Positions 53,896 to 61,021 of a stretch of DNA of 64,000 bases are shown in pieces. Each line of letters opens with the position of its first letter. The stretch's first letter is position 1. This DNA is from Actinomycetes bacterium (lineage in GTDB: Bacteria > Actinomycetota > Acidimicrobiia > Acidimicrobiales > RAAP-2), in NCBI GenBank assembly GCA_021848365.1, contig JAJZUS010000001.1:1-64000 (forward strand), given 5' to 3'. The notes under the pieces were generated by a model that was given only the letters and a program-made list of their open reading frames with translations, made no database searches and was not told the origin of the DNA. Both the position numbers and the translations under genes were made by a program.

Positions 53896-55425
53896 GTGAC
53901 CCCTCACCAGGCCCACGAACACCACCACGCACGCCGGTGGGCGATCCTCGGATTCCTGGGACTCGCCCAGCTGATGGTCGTCCTCGACGCCACGGTCGTC
54001 AACATCGCCATGCCGACCATCCAGCACGCGCTGCACTTCTCGGACGCCCAGCGCCAGTGGATCGTCACGGCCTACTCCCTCGCCTTCGGCTCCCTCCTCT
54101 TCCTCGGTGGTCGTCTCGGTGACGTCCTCGGACGCAAGGCGACGCTGATCGTCGGCCTGGTCGGCTTCGCCGTCGCCTCGGCCATCGGCGGAGCGTCGAC
54201 GAGCTTCACGATGCTCGCCATCTCCCGCGCCGTCCAGGGCGCCTTCGGCGCGGTCCTCGCCCCGGCCGCCCTCGCCATGCTCACGACGATCTTCACCGAC
54301 GCGAAGGAGCGGGCGACCGCGTTCTCCGTCTACGGAGCGATCGCGAGCTCGGGTGCCGCCCTCGGGCTGCTGCTCGGCGGCGTGCTGACCCAGTACTTCT
54401 CGTGGCGCTGGACCCTCTACGTCAACCTGGTGTTCGCCGCGATCGCGCTCGCCGGCACGCTCAGCCTCATGGTGCACATGCGTTCCGAGCACCACGGCGC
54501 CCTCGACGTGACGAGCACCGTCCTCATCTCGACGGGACTCTTCGGTGTCGTCTACGGACTCTCCAACGCGGCTAACTCGGCGACCACCGCCTTCTCGAGT
54601 CACACCTCGGTTCCCTCGCTCATCTCGAGCTTCTCCAGCGCCTCGACCCTGATACCACTCTTCGTCGGCCTCGCGCTGGTCGGAGCGTTCGTCGTGCGCC
54701 AGCGACGGATGTCCCACCCGATGCTCCCGCTCAGCGTGGTGACCGATCGGACCCGTGGCGGCGCCTACCTCTCGATCTTCGTCTCGGCGATCGGGATGTT
54801 CGCGGTCTTCCTCTTCCTCACCTACTACCTGCAGGGCATCCTCGGCTTCTCGCCGGTGAAGGCCGGGGTCGCCTTCTTGCCGATGCCGGCGACCATCGCG
54901 GTCGTGGCGATCGTCACGTCGACCCGCCTGCTGCCGAAGTTCGGCCCGCGAGTGCTGATGGCGCCGGGCATGGTCGTCGCCGCGGTGGGGATGTTCTACT
55001 TCACGCACCTGTCCGTGCACGGCTCGTACTTGACCCACGTGCTGCCGGGCCTCATCATCACCGCCGTGGGCATGGGCCTCATCTTCGCGCCGGCGATGAA
55101 CGTGGCCACCTACCGCGTGAACCACAATGACGCCGGAGCCGCGTCGGCCACGGTCAACGTCGCCCAGCAGATCGGCGGCTCGATCGGCACGGCGCTGCTC
55201 AACACCATCGCGGTCTCCACGACGGCGACGGCCATCGCCGGCGCCGGGGCGGCGGCGGCCACCAACCCGGCCATCACCGCGGCGGCCCTCGTGAAGGGCT
55301 ACACCACCACCTTCTGGTGGGCCCTGGTGATCTTCGCGGTCGGCGCGGTCGTCGCGGCGACGGTGATCCCCGCGGGACGGCTCGACGCCCCCCAGGGCGA
55401 CGCCGCCCCGGCACTGGCCCACTGA
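53896..55425 (+). CDS. MFS drug exporter, DHA2 (14-TMS) family
   Basis: The 509-residue transporter has 14 hydrophobic segments, motif A FLGGRLGDVLGRK between TM2 and TM3, LDATVVNIAMPTIQ in TM1 (DHA2 motif D1) and GAALGLLLGGVLTQYFSWRW (motif C region). The N-terminus is His-rich (HQAHEHHHARR), a possible metal-binding stretch. Exporters of this family remove drugs with protons. Its expression is presumably controlled by the divergent TetR protein. Confidence 0.92.
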   Translation: MTPHQAHEHHHARRWAILGFLGLAQLMVVLDATVVNIAMPTIQHALHFSDAQRQWIVTAYSLAFGSLLFLGGRLGDVLGRKATLIVGLVGFAVASAIGGASTSFTMLAISRAVQGAFGAVLAPAALAMLTTIFTDAKERATAFSVYGAIASSGAALGLLLGGVLTQYFSWRWTLYVNLVFAAIALAGTLSLMVHMRSEHHGALDVTSTVLISTGLFGVVYGLSNAANSATTAFSSHTSVPSLISSFSSASTLIPLFVGLALVGAFVVRQRRMSHPMLPLSVVTDRTRGGAYLSIFVSAIGMFAVFLFLTYYLQGILGFSPVKAGVAFLPMPATIAVVAIVTSTRLLPKFGPRVLMAPGMVVAAVGMFYFTHLSVHGSYLTHVLPGLIITAVGMGLIFAPAMNVATYRVNHNDAGAASATVNVAQQIGGSIGTALLNTIAVSTTATAIAGAGAAAATNPAITAAALVKGYTTTFWWALVIFAVGAVVAATVIPAGRLDAPQGDAAPALAH

Positions 55426-55501
55426 TGGCGAGCCGACCCGGTGCGACGCGCCCGTGCGTGGGGCGTAGGGTGGGCCGGTACCACGAGGAGGCGATAGTTC
55501 G

Positions 55502-57178
55502 GTGACCACGGAGAGGCTGCGACCTGACGTGGACACCGCGGGACCCGTCGAGATCGCCCCCCGCGTCTGGTGGGTGGGTCACCTGATCCCGGGCGATCGC
55601 TTCCAGGCCCACGCCTACCTCATCGAGGCCGGCGACCGGTCGGTCCTCATCGACCCGGGCTCCGCGCTCACGATCGAGCACGTGCTCGAGAAGGTGCGCC
55701 AGGTCCTCGACCCGCGCGACATCCGCTGGGTCGTCGCGCACCACACCGATCCCGACGTCTGCTCGGCGCTCCCGGTCCTCGACGACCTCGTCCATCCCGA
55801 CGCCCACATCGTCACCGAGTGGCGGGGCCAGGCCCTCCTGCGCCACTACGGATCGAGCCTGCCCTTCTATCTCGTCGAGGACCACGACTGGCGCATCGAC
55901 CTCGACGGCGAGCGGCGCCTCGACTTCACGCTGATCCCCTACCTCCACTTCCCCGGCGCGCTCGCCTCCTACGAGACCGCGTCGCGCGTCCTGTTCACCT
56001 GCGACCTCTTCGGCGGCTTCACCGTGGGCGACGAGCTCTTCGCTCACGACCTGGGGTACTTCGACGAGATCCGTGCCTTCCACGAGCACTACATGCCGAG
56101 CGGGGACATCCTGCGGGCGGGGCTCGACAACCTGCGCCACCGATTCCCCGACACCCGGGTCGTCGCGCCCCAGCACGGCCGCATCTTCGCCGACGACCTC
56201 GTCTGGCCGATGTTCGATCGCCTGAGCGACGTCGAGTGCGGCATCTTCCTCATGGCCCAGGACGACCTCCACCTCGCCAACCTGCTCGCGGCCTCGGCCC
56301 TCGAGCGCCGCCTGGCCCAGACCCTCCTCGGCTCGGCGGAGTTGCCCGACCTCGCCGACCGCTCGACGATCCTCCTGCGCGAGTTCCTGCCCGTCGAGCG
56401 GCTCGAGGCCTACGTCGAGACCACGGACGAGGGGACGCTCCTCTTCTCCCCGGAGGAGGGCTACGGCGGTACGCCCGTCCCGGCCATCCCCTACGGGCCG
56501 ACGGTGCCGTACCTCGCGCTGCCCCAGCCCGAGGGGGCGCCGTCGATTCGCGTCTACGCCGTCCTCCCGGACGGGGTGGAGATCCCCCGGTCGCTGGCCC
56601 GCGCCATGATCCAGCTGGCCCAGCCCATCCAGATCGCGATGTCCGAGCACCTCGCGCGCCGGGCGGCCGCGCGCGAGCGCCAGCGCATCATCGCCGAGAC
56701 GCTCCGCGACCCCCTGACCGGACTGCACAACCGGCGCGTCCTCTCCGACGCTCACGTCGCCGAGGACCCCAGCGCGATCCTCATGATCGACCTCGACAAC
56801 CTGAAGGACGTGAACGACGCCGCCGGGCACGACGCCGGCGACCAGATCCTCCAGGGGGTGGCCCGGGTCATCCTCGGTAACATCCGCCAGCGCTCCGACC
56901 TCGGCGTGCGCTACGGCGGCGACGAGTTCCTCGTCGTGCTGCGCGAAGCCGGTCAGAGCCACGCGATCGAGGTCGCCGAGCGGATCCGTCAGCAGGTCGA
57001 GCACCTGCGCGTCACGACGATCCAGGACGGGGCCTCGCCGCTGCGTACCTCGGTGAGCATCGGGGTGGCGATGCACCCCTCGCGCGAGGACCTCGGCATG
57101 ACGATCCTGCGTGCCGACCGTCGTCTCTACGAGGCGAAGTCCACCGGGCGCAATCGCGTGATCACCCCGAGCGACTGA
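55502..57178 (+). CDS. diiron-type metallo-beta-lactamase domain fused to GGDEF (candidate oxygen-sensing diguanylate cyclase)
   Basis: Residues 1-250 form an MBL domain of the flavodiiron/ODP type with ligands H81-x-D83-x-D85, H149 (YLHFPGALASY), D168 (FTCDLFGGF) and H225 (APQHGRIF); the usual His after D85 is Val86. A helical linker (about 360-400, ending ARRAAARERQRIIAETLRD) leads to a GGDEF domain (402-555, DPLTGLHNRR, MIDLDNLKDVND, YGGDEF at 471-476, SIGVAMHP). The inhibitory RxxD site is lost (Gln at the Arg position). ODP-type domains bind oxygen at a diiron centre; the output is c-di-GMP. GAGGAGG precedes the GTG by about 12 bp. Confidence 0.85.
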   Translation: MTTERLRPDVDTAGPVEIAPRVWWVGHLIPGDRFQAHAYLIEAGDRSVLIDPGSALTIEHVLEKVRQVLDPRDIRWVVAHHTDPDVCSALPVLDDLVHPDAHIVTEWRGQALLRHYGSSLPFYLVEDHDWRIDLDGERRLDFTLIPYLHFPGALASYETASRVLFTCDLFGGFTVGDELFAHDLGYFDEIRAFHEHYMPSGDILRAGLDNLRHRFPDTRVVAPQHGRIFADDLVWPMFDRLSDVECGIFLMAQDDLHLANLLAASALERRLAQTLLGSAELPDLADRSTILLREFLPVERLEAYVETTDEGTLLFSPEEGYGGTPVPAIPYGPTVPYLALPQPEGAPSIRVYAVLPDGVEIPRSLARAMIQLAQPIQIAMSEHLARRAAARERQRIIAETLRDPLTGLHNRRVLSDAHVAEDPSAILMIDLDNLKDVNDAAGHDAGDQILQGVARVILGNIRQRSDLGVRYGGDEFLVVLREAGQSHAIEVAERIRQQVEHLRVTTIQDGASPLRTSVSIGVAMHPSREDLGMTILRADRRLYEAKSTGRNRVITPSD

Positions 57179-57216: not shown

Positions 57217-57639
57217 ATGGGATTCGTCGCCGCGGTGCGGTCGGCCTTCGCCAACTACGCCAACTTCCGAGGACGGACGACCCGTCCGCAGTACTGGTGG
57301 TTCGTCCTCTTCTACCTCATCGTCACGATCCTCCTGACGGTGATCGGCTCGCGAGCCCTCACCACGCTCGTTGGGCTCGCCCTGCTCGTGCCCAACATCT
57401 CCCTGCAGGTCCGACGCCACCACGACGCCGGACGCTCGGGCTGGTGGACTCTGACCAGCCTGGTGCCCCTGTGGGGGATCATCCTGCTCCTCTACCCCTC
57501 GAAGGGGGTCGGCAACCGCTACGGCGACGGGGCCCTCATCGACGCGCCGGCGCCGACCACGAAGTCCTGCGCCAGCTGCGGGAAGATGGCCCTGCCGGGC
57601 CAGCACTTCTGCACCGGCTGCGGAGCTCCGCTGGACTAG
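57217..57639 (+). CDS. DUF805 membrane protein with C-terminal zinc ribbon
   Basis: The 140-residue protein has the DUF805 pattern (YANFRGRTTRPQYWWFVLFYLIV, RRHHDAGRSGWW, YPSKGVGNRYGDG) with three or four hydrophobic segments and a cytosolic-type zinc ribbon (SCASCGKMALPGQHFCTGCGAPLD). The ATG at 57217 is preceded by GGGGAGGA. Its stop overlaps the amidase stop as CTAG. Function unknown. Confidence 0.87.
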   Translation: MGFVAAVRSAFANYANFRGRTTRPQYWWFVLFYLIVTILLTVIGSRALTTLVGLALLVPNISLQVRRHHDAGRSGWWTLTSLVPLWGIILLLYPSKGVGNRYGDGALIDAPAPTTKSCASCGKMALPGQHFCTGCGAPLD

Positions 57640-59119: not shown

Positions 59120-61021
59120 CTAGGGCAGGACGATCTCGAAGCCGAGGGGAAACGTGTCGAGGTGGCCGCACAGCGCGTCGAGAGCCGTCGGGTCGCCCTC
59201 GCAGCTCGCGCCGCCCGCGGCGACGATCTCCGACAACGTCGCGGTGCCGGCGGCCAGGGGGACGAAGCCGGCGACCGTCGTCGTCACCCGGAGCGCCGGG
59301 TCGGCGTCGCGGGTGCGACGAGCGTGCACCACCCCGTGGCGGACCCCGACGAGCCAGGTCTCGTCGCGGTCGCCGAAGTGGACGCTCGCGTCGAGGGTCA
59401 ACCGCTCCGCGGCCGGACCGTCGAGGCGCACCCCGATGAGGTCGAAGAGGTCCTCGGGCCGTAGGTGCCGCACCATCGCCGGATCGACGCTCCGCCCGGC
59501 GTGCGGCAGGGGTGTACCCCCCCGGCGCAGCTCCATCGCCCCCGTGAGGTAGACGTCGCGCCAGGGACCGGACTCGGCCTGGTAGCCGAGCTGCTCGTAG
59601 GCGTCTGCGAGGAGCGCGCGCCCCCCCGCGTGGTGGGGCTCGGCGAAGACGACGTGCTGGAGCACCTCGGCGACCCAGCGGTAGTCCCCCTCGGCGAAGG
59701 AGTCGGCGGCCCGCTCGACGACGACGTCCGACCCCCCCATGTAGGCGAGGTAGCGACGGGCCGCCTCGACGGGAGGGTGGGGGTCGAGGTGAGCCGGCAC
59801 CGCGTCGTAGAAGCCCAGGTAGCGCTGGTAGACGGCGCGCACGTTGTGCGAGACGGTGCCGTAGTAGTCGCGGTTGAAGAACTCGTCGCCGAGCGCGTCG
59901 GGCAGGCGCACCGCCGCGGCGATCTCGAGCGGGGTGAGGCCGTGGTTCGCGAGCCGCAGGGCCTGATCGTGGAGGTAGCGGTAGGCGTCGCGCTGACTCG
60001 CGAGGTAGTGGGCGACCTCGGCCGACCCGAAGCGGGGCCAGTGGTGCGAGGCGAAGGCCACGTCGCTGCGCGACCCGAAGAGGTCCAGCGCCTCGTCGAT
60101 GTACTTCGACCAGCCGAGCGCGTCGCGGACCTGGGCCCCGCGCAGGGTGTAGAGGTTGTGCTGGGTGGCCGTGCAGTTCTCGGCGAGGCAGAGGGCGCGA
60201 TGGTCCGGCAGGTAGAGGTTCATCTCGGCCGGCGCCTCGGTGCCGGGGGTCATTTGCACGACGAGGCGCACGCCGTCGAGGACGATCTCCTCACCGGTCG
60301 TGTGCGCGAGGCGGGTCGGGGCGACGAGCGACGCGCTCGGCAGGGCCGGGAGGCCCTTGCCGAGGCCGGTGTCGACGTGACCCCGCGCGTCGTGGCCGAG
60401 CAGGACGCCGTACATGTAGGTCGCCCGACGCAGCATCGCCGGGCCGGCGAGGATCTGCTCGCTGACCGCGGCCTCGAGGAATCCCGCGGGGGCGATCACC
60501 TCGACCTCGCCCCGCTCGACGGCCGCCTCGTCGACCACCCCGAGGATCCCCCCGTAGTGGTCGGCGTGACTGTGGGTGTAGAGGACCGCGCGCACCGGAC
60601 GCTCGCCCAGGTGCTCCGTGACGAGGGCCCGTGCGGCCCGGGCCGTCTCGGTCGAGGTGAGCGGGTCGATCACGATCCAGCCCGTTCGACCGGCGATGAA
60701 GGTGACGTTCGAGATGTCGAGGCCGCGCACCTGGTAGACGCCGGGCACGACCTCGAAGAGTCCGGCCACGTTGTTGAGCCGGGCCTGCCGCCACAGGCTC
60801 GGGTTGACGGTGGGCGGGCACTCCGCGTCGAGGAAGGCGTAGCTGTCGAGGTCCCACAGAGCGTGGCCGAAGGCGCCCTCGACCCGGCCCGCACCCGGCG
60901 GGGCGATCCGCCCCCGGGTCGCGCGCGCTCGGTCGTCGTCGCTCTGGCGGGCGAGCCACGTCGCGACCGCCGCCTGGCGGGCGGCCGTCGCGGGCGTCGC
61001 GTCTCGGCGCTCGTCGTCCAC
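59120..61021 (-). CDS. alkyl sulfatase, linear primary alkylsulfatase (SdsA1/BDS1) family
   Basis: The 633-residue protein has an MBL core with THSHADHYGG, AENCTATQHNLYTLRGAQVRDALGWSKYI, FASHHWPRFG, an alkyl-sulfatase dimerisation domain (RRYLAYMGGSDVVVERAADSFAEGDYRWVAEVLQHVVFAEPHH) and an SCP2-like lipid-binding C-terminus (about 510-630). The N-terminus has DLDSYAFLD and PPTVNPSLWRQARLNNVAGLFEV. The family hydrolyses SDS and related alkyl sulfates. No signal peptide is seen, unlike Pseudomonas SdsA1. GTG start at 61021, RBS GAAGGGGG. Confidence 0.92.
   Translation of the reverse strand: MDDERRDATPATAARQAAVATWLARQSDDDRARATRGRIAPPGAGRVEGAFGHALWDLDSYAFLDAECPPTVNPSLWRQARLNNVAGLFEVVPGVYQVRGLDISNVTFIAGRTGWIVIDPLTSTETARAARALVTEHLGERPVRAVLYTHSHADHYGGILGVVDEAAVERGEVEVIAPAGFLEAAVSEQILAGPAMLRRATYMYGVLLGHDARGHVDTGLGKGLPALPSASLVAPTRLAHTTGEEIVLDGVRLVVQMTPGTEAPAEMNLYLPDHRALCLAENCTATQHNLYTLRGAQVRDALGWSKYIDEALDLFGSRSDVAFASHHWPRFGSAEVAHYLASQRDAYRYLHDQALRLANHGLTPLEIAAAVRLPDALGDEFFNRDYYGTVSHNVRAVYQRYLGFYDAVPAHLDPHPPVEAARRYLAYMGGSDVVVERAADSFAEGDYRWVAEVLQHVVFAEPHHAGGRALLADAYEQLGYQAESGPWRDVYLTGAMELRRGGTPLPHAGRSVDPAMVRHLRPEDLFDLIGVRLDGPAAERLTLDASVHFGDRDETWLVGVRHGVVHARRTRDADPALRVTTTVAGFVPLAAGTATLSEIVAAGGASCEGDPTALDALCGHLDTFPLGFEIVLP

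Follow-up and report, generated by a model that had tools for sequence, protein, structure and literature searches.

An ODP-type diiron domain fused to a diguanylate cyclase in Acidimicrobiia and other bacteria: a candidate oxygen and iron sensor in c-di-GMP signaling

The stretch of DNA analyzed here (the window, 64,000 nucleotides from a member of the Acidimicrobiales) encodes, at 55502–57178 on the forward strand, a 558-residue protein for which the ORF, Pfam, and structure prediction together give the order ODP (oxygen-binding diiron protein) domain, probable GAF-like domain, coiled coil, and GGDEF diguanylate cyclase. The question raised by this locus is what an ODP domain, a diiron domain of the metallo-beta-lactamase (MBL) fold, might sense when its output is a cyclase, and whether iron is part of the answer.

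The ODP-GGDEF gene and its predicted iron site

The ORF begins with GTG and is preceded by GAGGAGG at 55485–55491; an ORF check and alignment to the solved ODPs confirmed the coordinates and residues given in the initial annotation. Comparison with a 96%-identical relative (L082) gave a dN/dS of ~0.1 (NG86), and Pfam detected both the ODP and the GGDEF domain in all 70 aligned relatives, which places the ODP-GGDEF observation far beyond chance. Among the matches listed, an Acidimicrobiaceae MAG (DAIDKS010000014.1, 95% identity) comes closest of the named records. An antisense ORF of 600 residues at 55274–57076 overlaps the gene; it has no support of its own and was dismissed, since at 72% GC such extended shadow ORFs are to be anticipated.

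The ODP domain spans residues ~15–250 (55544–56251, forward strand, as are all features of this gene). Pfam family PF19583 covers residues 34–226 with E=4.6e-49 and 167.4 bits, against a curated cut-off of 27.2. The PDB sequences closest to the protein are the ODPs of T. maritima (6qrq/6qwo) and T. denticola (6qnm/6r9n), followed by flavodiiron proteins. As the initial annotation had proposed, a diiron-type ligand set is kept: H81, D83, and D85 (motif H81-x-D83-x-D85-V86, 55742–55759), H149 (55946–55948; aligned with 6qrq and 6qnm), the predicted bridging ligand D168 (56003–56005), and H225 line up with identical residues in both solved ODPs, whose ligand-column string is HDDVHDQH.

Val86 had been taken for the replacement of a ligand His. 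The valine is indeed there, and it stands where His is found in the flavodiiron alignment, with the Ala of a T. maritima flavodiiron mutant (4dik, H90A) aligned to the same position; however, it is not a lost ligand. Both solved ODPs also carry Val at this position, in the motif H-Q-D-P-D-V, and Val, Ile, or Leu at 86 is an ODP signature for which Gln224 compensates. According to a superfamily survey (PMC7785958), a Gln at motif 5 of T. maritima ODP replaces the third His of motif 2. The corresponding residue in the window protein is Q224, within APQHG, which together with H225 (56171–56176) forms the last predicted ligand pair and stands in for the flavodiiron His. Across the 53 members with the six other ligands intact, window included, position 86 is Ile in 47, Val in five, and Leu in one, and position 224 is Gln in all 53. 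Because the solved ODPs carry Val at 86 and the compensating Gln is present here and in every intact member, the site is, judged by sequence, a complete ODP site rather than a damaged flavodiiron site.

These features also bear on two other readings of the domain. The protein was rejected as a flavodiiron protein, given that it lacks the last motif-2 His, has an ODP-like ligand set and, as noted initially, is without a flavodoxin domain after the MBL domain by Pfam. After the ODPs, the solved proteins most similar to it are flavodiiron NO reductases, and descent from such enzymes could imply an NO sensor, as the initial annotation had suggested; this is very improbable and the claim is left unsupported, as no NO-specific feature was found, the flavodoxin domain is missing, and the ligand set follows the ODPs and not the flavodiiron proteins. 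A general Lactamase_B match in Pfam (E=2.4e-8) might point to a hydrolase of the metallo-beta-lactamase fold joined to the GGDEF domain, but such an enzyme would need the HxHxDH motif, which here reads H-T-D-P-D-V and which occurs in no ligand-intact relative; a hydrolase is thus highly improbable as well.

Linker, cyclase output, and a proposed mechanism

An AlphaFold2 model built from the 70-row alignment has a mean pLDDT of 89.8 and a pTM of 0.59, so that the placement of the domains relative to one another is uncertain. Its ODP part resembles two solved structures, 6qwo with Z 29.1 (2.4 A over 242 residues) and 6r9n, a peroxy-diiron ODP, with Z 28.0 (2.3 A over 227 residues). Its C-terminal part matches GGDEF structures, and Foldseek places IsPadC (5llw/5llx) first when the complete model is searched.

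Pfam makes no assignment between the ODP and GGDEF domains of the window protein. When residues 254–400 were modeled alone (pLDDT 85), the best matches were GAF domains with Z up to 9.7, although the Foldseek E was only 0.01 at best; the Pfam GAF family is not called in the window protein and is called weakly in two of 70 relatives. Residues ~256–372 (56267–56617) are therefore likely, but not firmly, a GAF-like domain in this model. A predicted signaling helix follows at residues 373–402 (56618–56707). Of 70 members, 69 have a helix of equal length before the GGDEF domain, and in the remaining one it is shorter by exactly one heptad, a pattern that fits signal transmission along a coiled coil; register control of this kind has been described in other diguanylate cyclases (PMC12805367).

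The GGDEF domain (56708–57157; PF00990 at residues 402–552, E=1.3e-37) retains its catalytic, metal, and substrate residues D403, D430, D432, K435, N438, and D439, together with GGDEF at 472–476. Apart from D/E variation at 474 and at the last position of the GGDEF motif, the catalytic columns are invariant in 70 sequences. By its motifs, the domain is catalytically intact and predicted to synthesize c-di-GMP. Pfam, ligand alignment, fold, and catalytic motifs agree with the original description of an ODP-like diiron domain of the MBL fold that is followed by an intact GGDEF domain.

The canonical I-site is missing, as had been recognized: RQRSD (R462-Q-R-S-D466, 56885–56899) precedes GGDEF in place of RxxD and has one extra residue. 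The RxxD motif is kept in 61 of the 70 sequences; each of the window clade's eight rows has R[QS]RSD with its extra residue, and L125 has SSTD. On this alignment, the loss is a derived trait specific to the window clade. The conclusion that signaling would be unrestrained was overstated, however, considering that I-site variants of a LOV diguanylate cyclase also acted at the inhibitory interface between sensor and effector (PMC12805367) and that the genome has six EAL matches.

The best explanation of these features, and one regarded as reasonably probable, is a cytoplasmic diiron sensor of O2 and Fe(II) that gates the cyclase through the fixed-length coiled coil. It is supported by the ODP ligand set, the co-conservation of Q224 and position 86, the fold match to 6r9n, the invariant GGDEF columns, a helix length that varies only by one heptad, the use of the same sensor domain in front of histidine kinases, and the presence of an MshEN protein in the window's own genome. 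In the proposed mechanism, two irons would be held by H81, D83, D85, H149, D168, H225, and Q224, and loading with Fe(II) followed by reaction with O2, which in T. denticola ODP yields a peroxo species that is stable, would change the conformation of the ODP domain. The change would be passed via the GAF-like domain and the coiled coil to paired GGDEF domains, whose active-site register the coiled coil may set, such that c-di-GMP synthesis would follow O2 and iron status. Sensing of O2 by the window protein is suggested by analogy with the ODP family, and iron binding, O2 binding, dimerization, the change of register, and the target are all inferred for the ODP-GGDEF protein; whether O2 or iron would turn the cyclase up or down is an evenly balanced matter. 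The T. denticola protein, an oxygen sensor (PMC7666581), binds both iron and oxygen and exerts its effect via a cytoplasmic receptor (PMC6978683).

A related reading is that the diferrous or diferric state, or the occupancy of the site by iron, is the signal rather than an O2 adduct, as in the Bhr-HD-GYP of acid-mine Ferrovum. Non-heme diiron control of c-di-GMP enzymes has precedents in that protein and in V. cholerae Bhr-DGC (PMC8846402, PMC9388753), and a title cited in PMC7785958 names T. denticola ODP an Fe[II] and oxygen sensor. Nevertheless, the title of 6r9n describes a peroxy-diiron species for the closest relatives of known structure, and a pure redox or Fe(II) sensor is accordingly rather improbable.

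Distribution of the fusion and loss of iron ligands

A scan of 84,980 genomes, based on a single peptide pattern and a profile built from the window's genus, returned at least 80 loci, a lower bound. The 76 full-length proteins that were compared, the window protein among them, comprise 70 ODP-GGDEF fusions and six ODP-histidine kinases (L105, L149–L153), namely, one hybrid kinase from Magnetococcales and five campylobacterotal PAS or GAF kinases. Since the same ODP domain also precedes histidine kinases, it is a general, portable plug-in sensor.

By record title, the other 69 fusions come from Actinomycetota, Pseudomonadota, Thermodesulfobacteriota, Acidobacteriota, Chloroflexota, Planctomycetota, Myxococcota, Nitrospirota, Nitrospinota, Spirochaetota, Campylobacterota, and Aquificota, a count of 12 phyla that includes many MAGs, some of whose titles may be wrong. 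One record titled Acidobacteria (L159, JABBNY010000001.1) encodes a protein that falls inside the actinobacterial clade, and its title is probably wrong. Cultured carriers include Thiocystis violacea DSM 207, Photobacterium lipolyticum DSM 16190, and Mariprofundus erugo P3. The architecture is not confined to Acidimicrobiia, the class in which a survey was proposed at the outset. Within the window's genus, it is patchy, with strong ODP matches in nine of the 37 genomes searched first. Apart from the fusion and shadow ORFs due to high GC, clustering of neighboring ORFs revealed no neighbor gene conserved across phyla. In a genome from a different family of the window's order (G059), an intact stand-alone ODP gene (L081:108–962) lies upstream of a separate GGDEF gene (L081:1553–3166), with ~0.6 kb between them, possibly an unfused version of the same pathway.

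To follow the iron site through the family, a tree of the 70 rows was built by a quick method (LG+G4) without the ligand columns. Of the 24 rows in the window's actinobacterial clade, 13 have lost at least one iron ligand, versus four of 46 elsewhere, corresponding to at least six to seven changes of ligand state on the tree. The changes seen include H81 to Q/N/D, D168 to A/V/S/N/K, and H225 to R/S/I/L. Three of the eight rows in the window's own subclade are broken, while the window, L082, L083, L084, and L085 are intact, and one genome (G300) carries two such genes, both ligand-broken. Judged from aligned residues, the iron-binding positions have therefore been lost repeatedly in this clade. 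For pairs of broken members, dN/dS of the ODP region was 0.08–0.53 (NG86), values that are rough at this high GC and saturation; being below 1, they indicate that the broken ODP domains are still constrained. That more than half of the clade's genes are broken yet constrained means that the ODP domain can serve some purpose without iron.

This pattern weakens the O2/Fe(II) sensor explanation, as do the pTM of the model and the fact that known ODPs stand alone and act on a chemoreceptor. A tentative, and on balance doubtful, reading is that the ODP domain of this clade repeatedly became a metal-free regulatory domain that is under selection and controls a working cyclase, for example by forming heterodimers with an iron-loaded paralogue, by antagonizing it, or by sensing another ligand, with the window protein keeping the ancestral iron site. 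Another proposal is that the domain is mainly a scaffold, or a sensor of an input other than O2 (a ligand, or a partner such as the product of the adjoining DUF805 gene), with iron optional or vestigial in the genus and the cyclase set by other inputs. Besides the ligand losses under constraint, including those in the window's subclade, this proposal draws on the presence of the DUF805 gene next to the fusion in all seven other window-clade loci. It is unlikely, however: the window protein, L082–L085, and the paralogue in the window's own genome keep all seven ligand residues, which would not be expected of a neutral site, and 42 of 46 rows outside the clade are intact.

Genome context and comparison with known systems

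The window's own genome (1.96 Mb, three contigs, 96.7% complete) has eight GGDEF matches in addition to its EAL matches. Its two PF19583 matches are both fusions, with no flavodiiron protein seen among them. The second ODP-GGDEF protein, a paralogue, has all seven ligand residues and an RPAD I-site intact. No CheW match was found in this 96.7%-complete genome and the GGDEF domain is fused to the ODP domain, in line with the early view that the output is c-di-GMP rather than chemotaxis. PilZ receptors were likewise not found in the genome, and a protein with the single MshEN match (type IV pilus ATPase type) is the only candidate c-di-GMP receptor found there. Three clustered GGDEF genes, at least two with EAL (G000:C3:376462–382015), lie ~15–20 kb from the MshEN gene (G000:C3:396417–396668) and may form a c-di-GMP and type IV pilus module with it.

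Downstream of the ODP-GGDEF gene by 38 bp, at 57217–57639 on the forward strand, lies a gene for a membrane-type DUF805 protein with a C-terminal zinc ribbon (Pfam), a possible partner of the ODP-GGDEF protein; an amidase gene follows on the opposite strand. A second MBL-fold protein, encoded at 59120–61021 on the reverse strand, is, by its motif THSHADHYGG, a putative alkylsulfatase-like hydrolase and is unrelated to the ODP finding.

A literature search, beyond whose reach the primary ODP paper lay, found no experimental study of an ODP-GGDEF fusion, nor a characterized case of a flavodiiron domain combined with GGDEF. The 2022 census of c-di-GMP network sensors lists heme PAS, globin, and hemerythrin as oxygen or redox sensors and does not contain the words ODP, diiron, or lactamase; a 2026 aerotaxis review gave no match for ODP. 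The architecture itself is visible in databases, as both domains are in Pfam. Three features go beyond the initial annotation: the probable GAF-like domain, a paralogue in the window's own genome whose I-site is intact, and the repeated loss of iron ligands among sister genes. If the O2/Fe(II) sensor explanation is true, c-di-GMP signaling would gain another structural class of oxygen or iron sensor beside heme and hemerythrin domains. With the fusion present in about a dozen phyla, cultured strains included, the proposal is testable at once, and because nature supplies members with intact as well as broken ligand sets, the role of the iron site in signaling can be addressed directly.

Among known systems, the closest are the ODPs of T. 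denticola (TDE2498) and T. maritima, which share the fold, the ligands including V86 and Q224, and the lack of a flavodoxin domain with the window protein. In contrast to those stand-alone proteins acting on chemoreceptors, the window ODP is fused via the GAF-like domain and helix to GGDEF in a genome without a CheW match, so the T. denticola type of chemotaxis system (stand-alone ODP plus CheA/CheW) is not matched. Flavodiiron proteins share the MBL-type diiron fold but differ in their flavodoxin domain, last motif-2 His, and reductase role. V. cholerae Bhr-DGC and Ferrovum Bhr-HD-GYP likewise place a c-di-GMP enzyme under a non-heme diiron domain, although theirs is a helical hemerythrin, unrelated in fold and ligands to the MBL fold. 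The phytochrome-activated diguanylate cyclase IsPadC shares the coiled coil and GGDEF domain and has a GAF/PHY-type domain where the window protein has its probable GAF-like domain, but it is a light sensor without a metal site. Finally, the globin-coupled oxygen-sensing cyclases (DgcO/DosC and BpeGReg) have the same layout of sensor, middle domain, and GGDEF, with a heme globin in the position taken here by the ODP domain.
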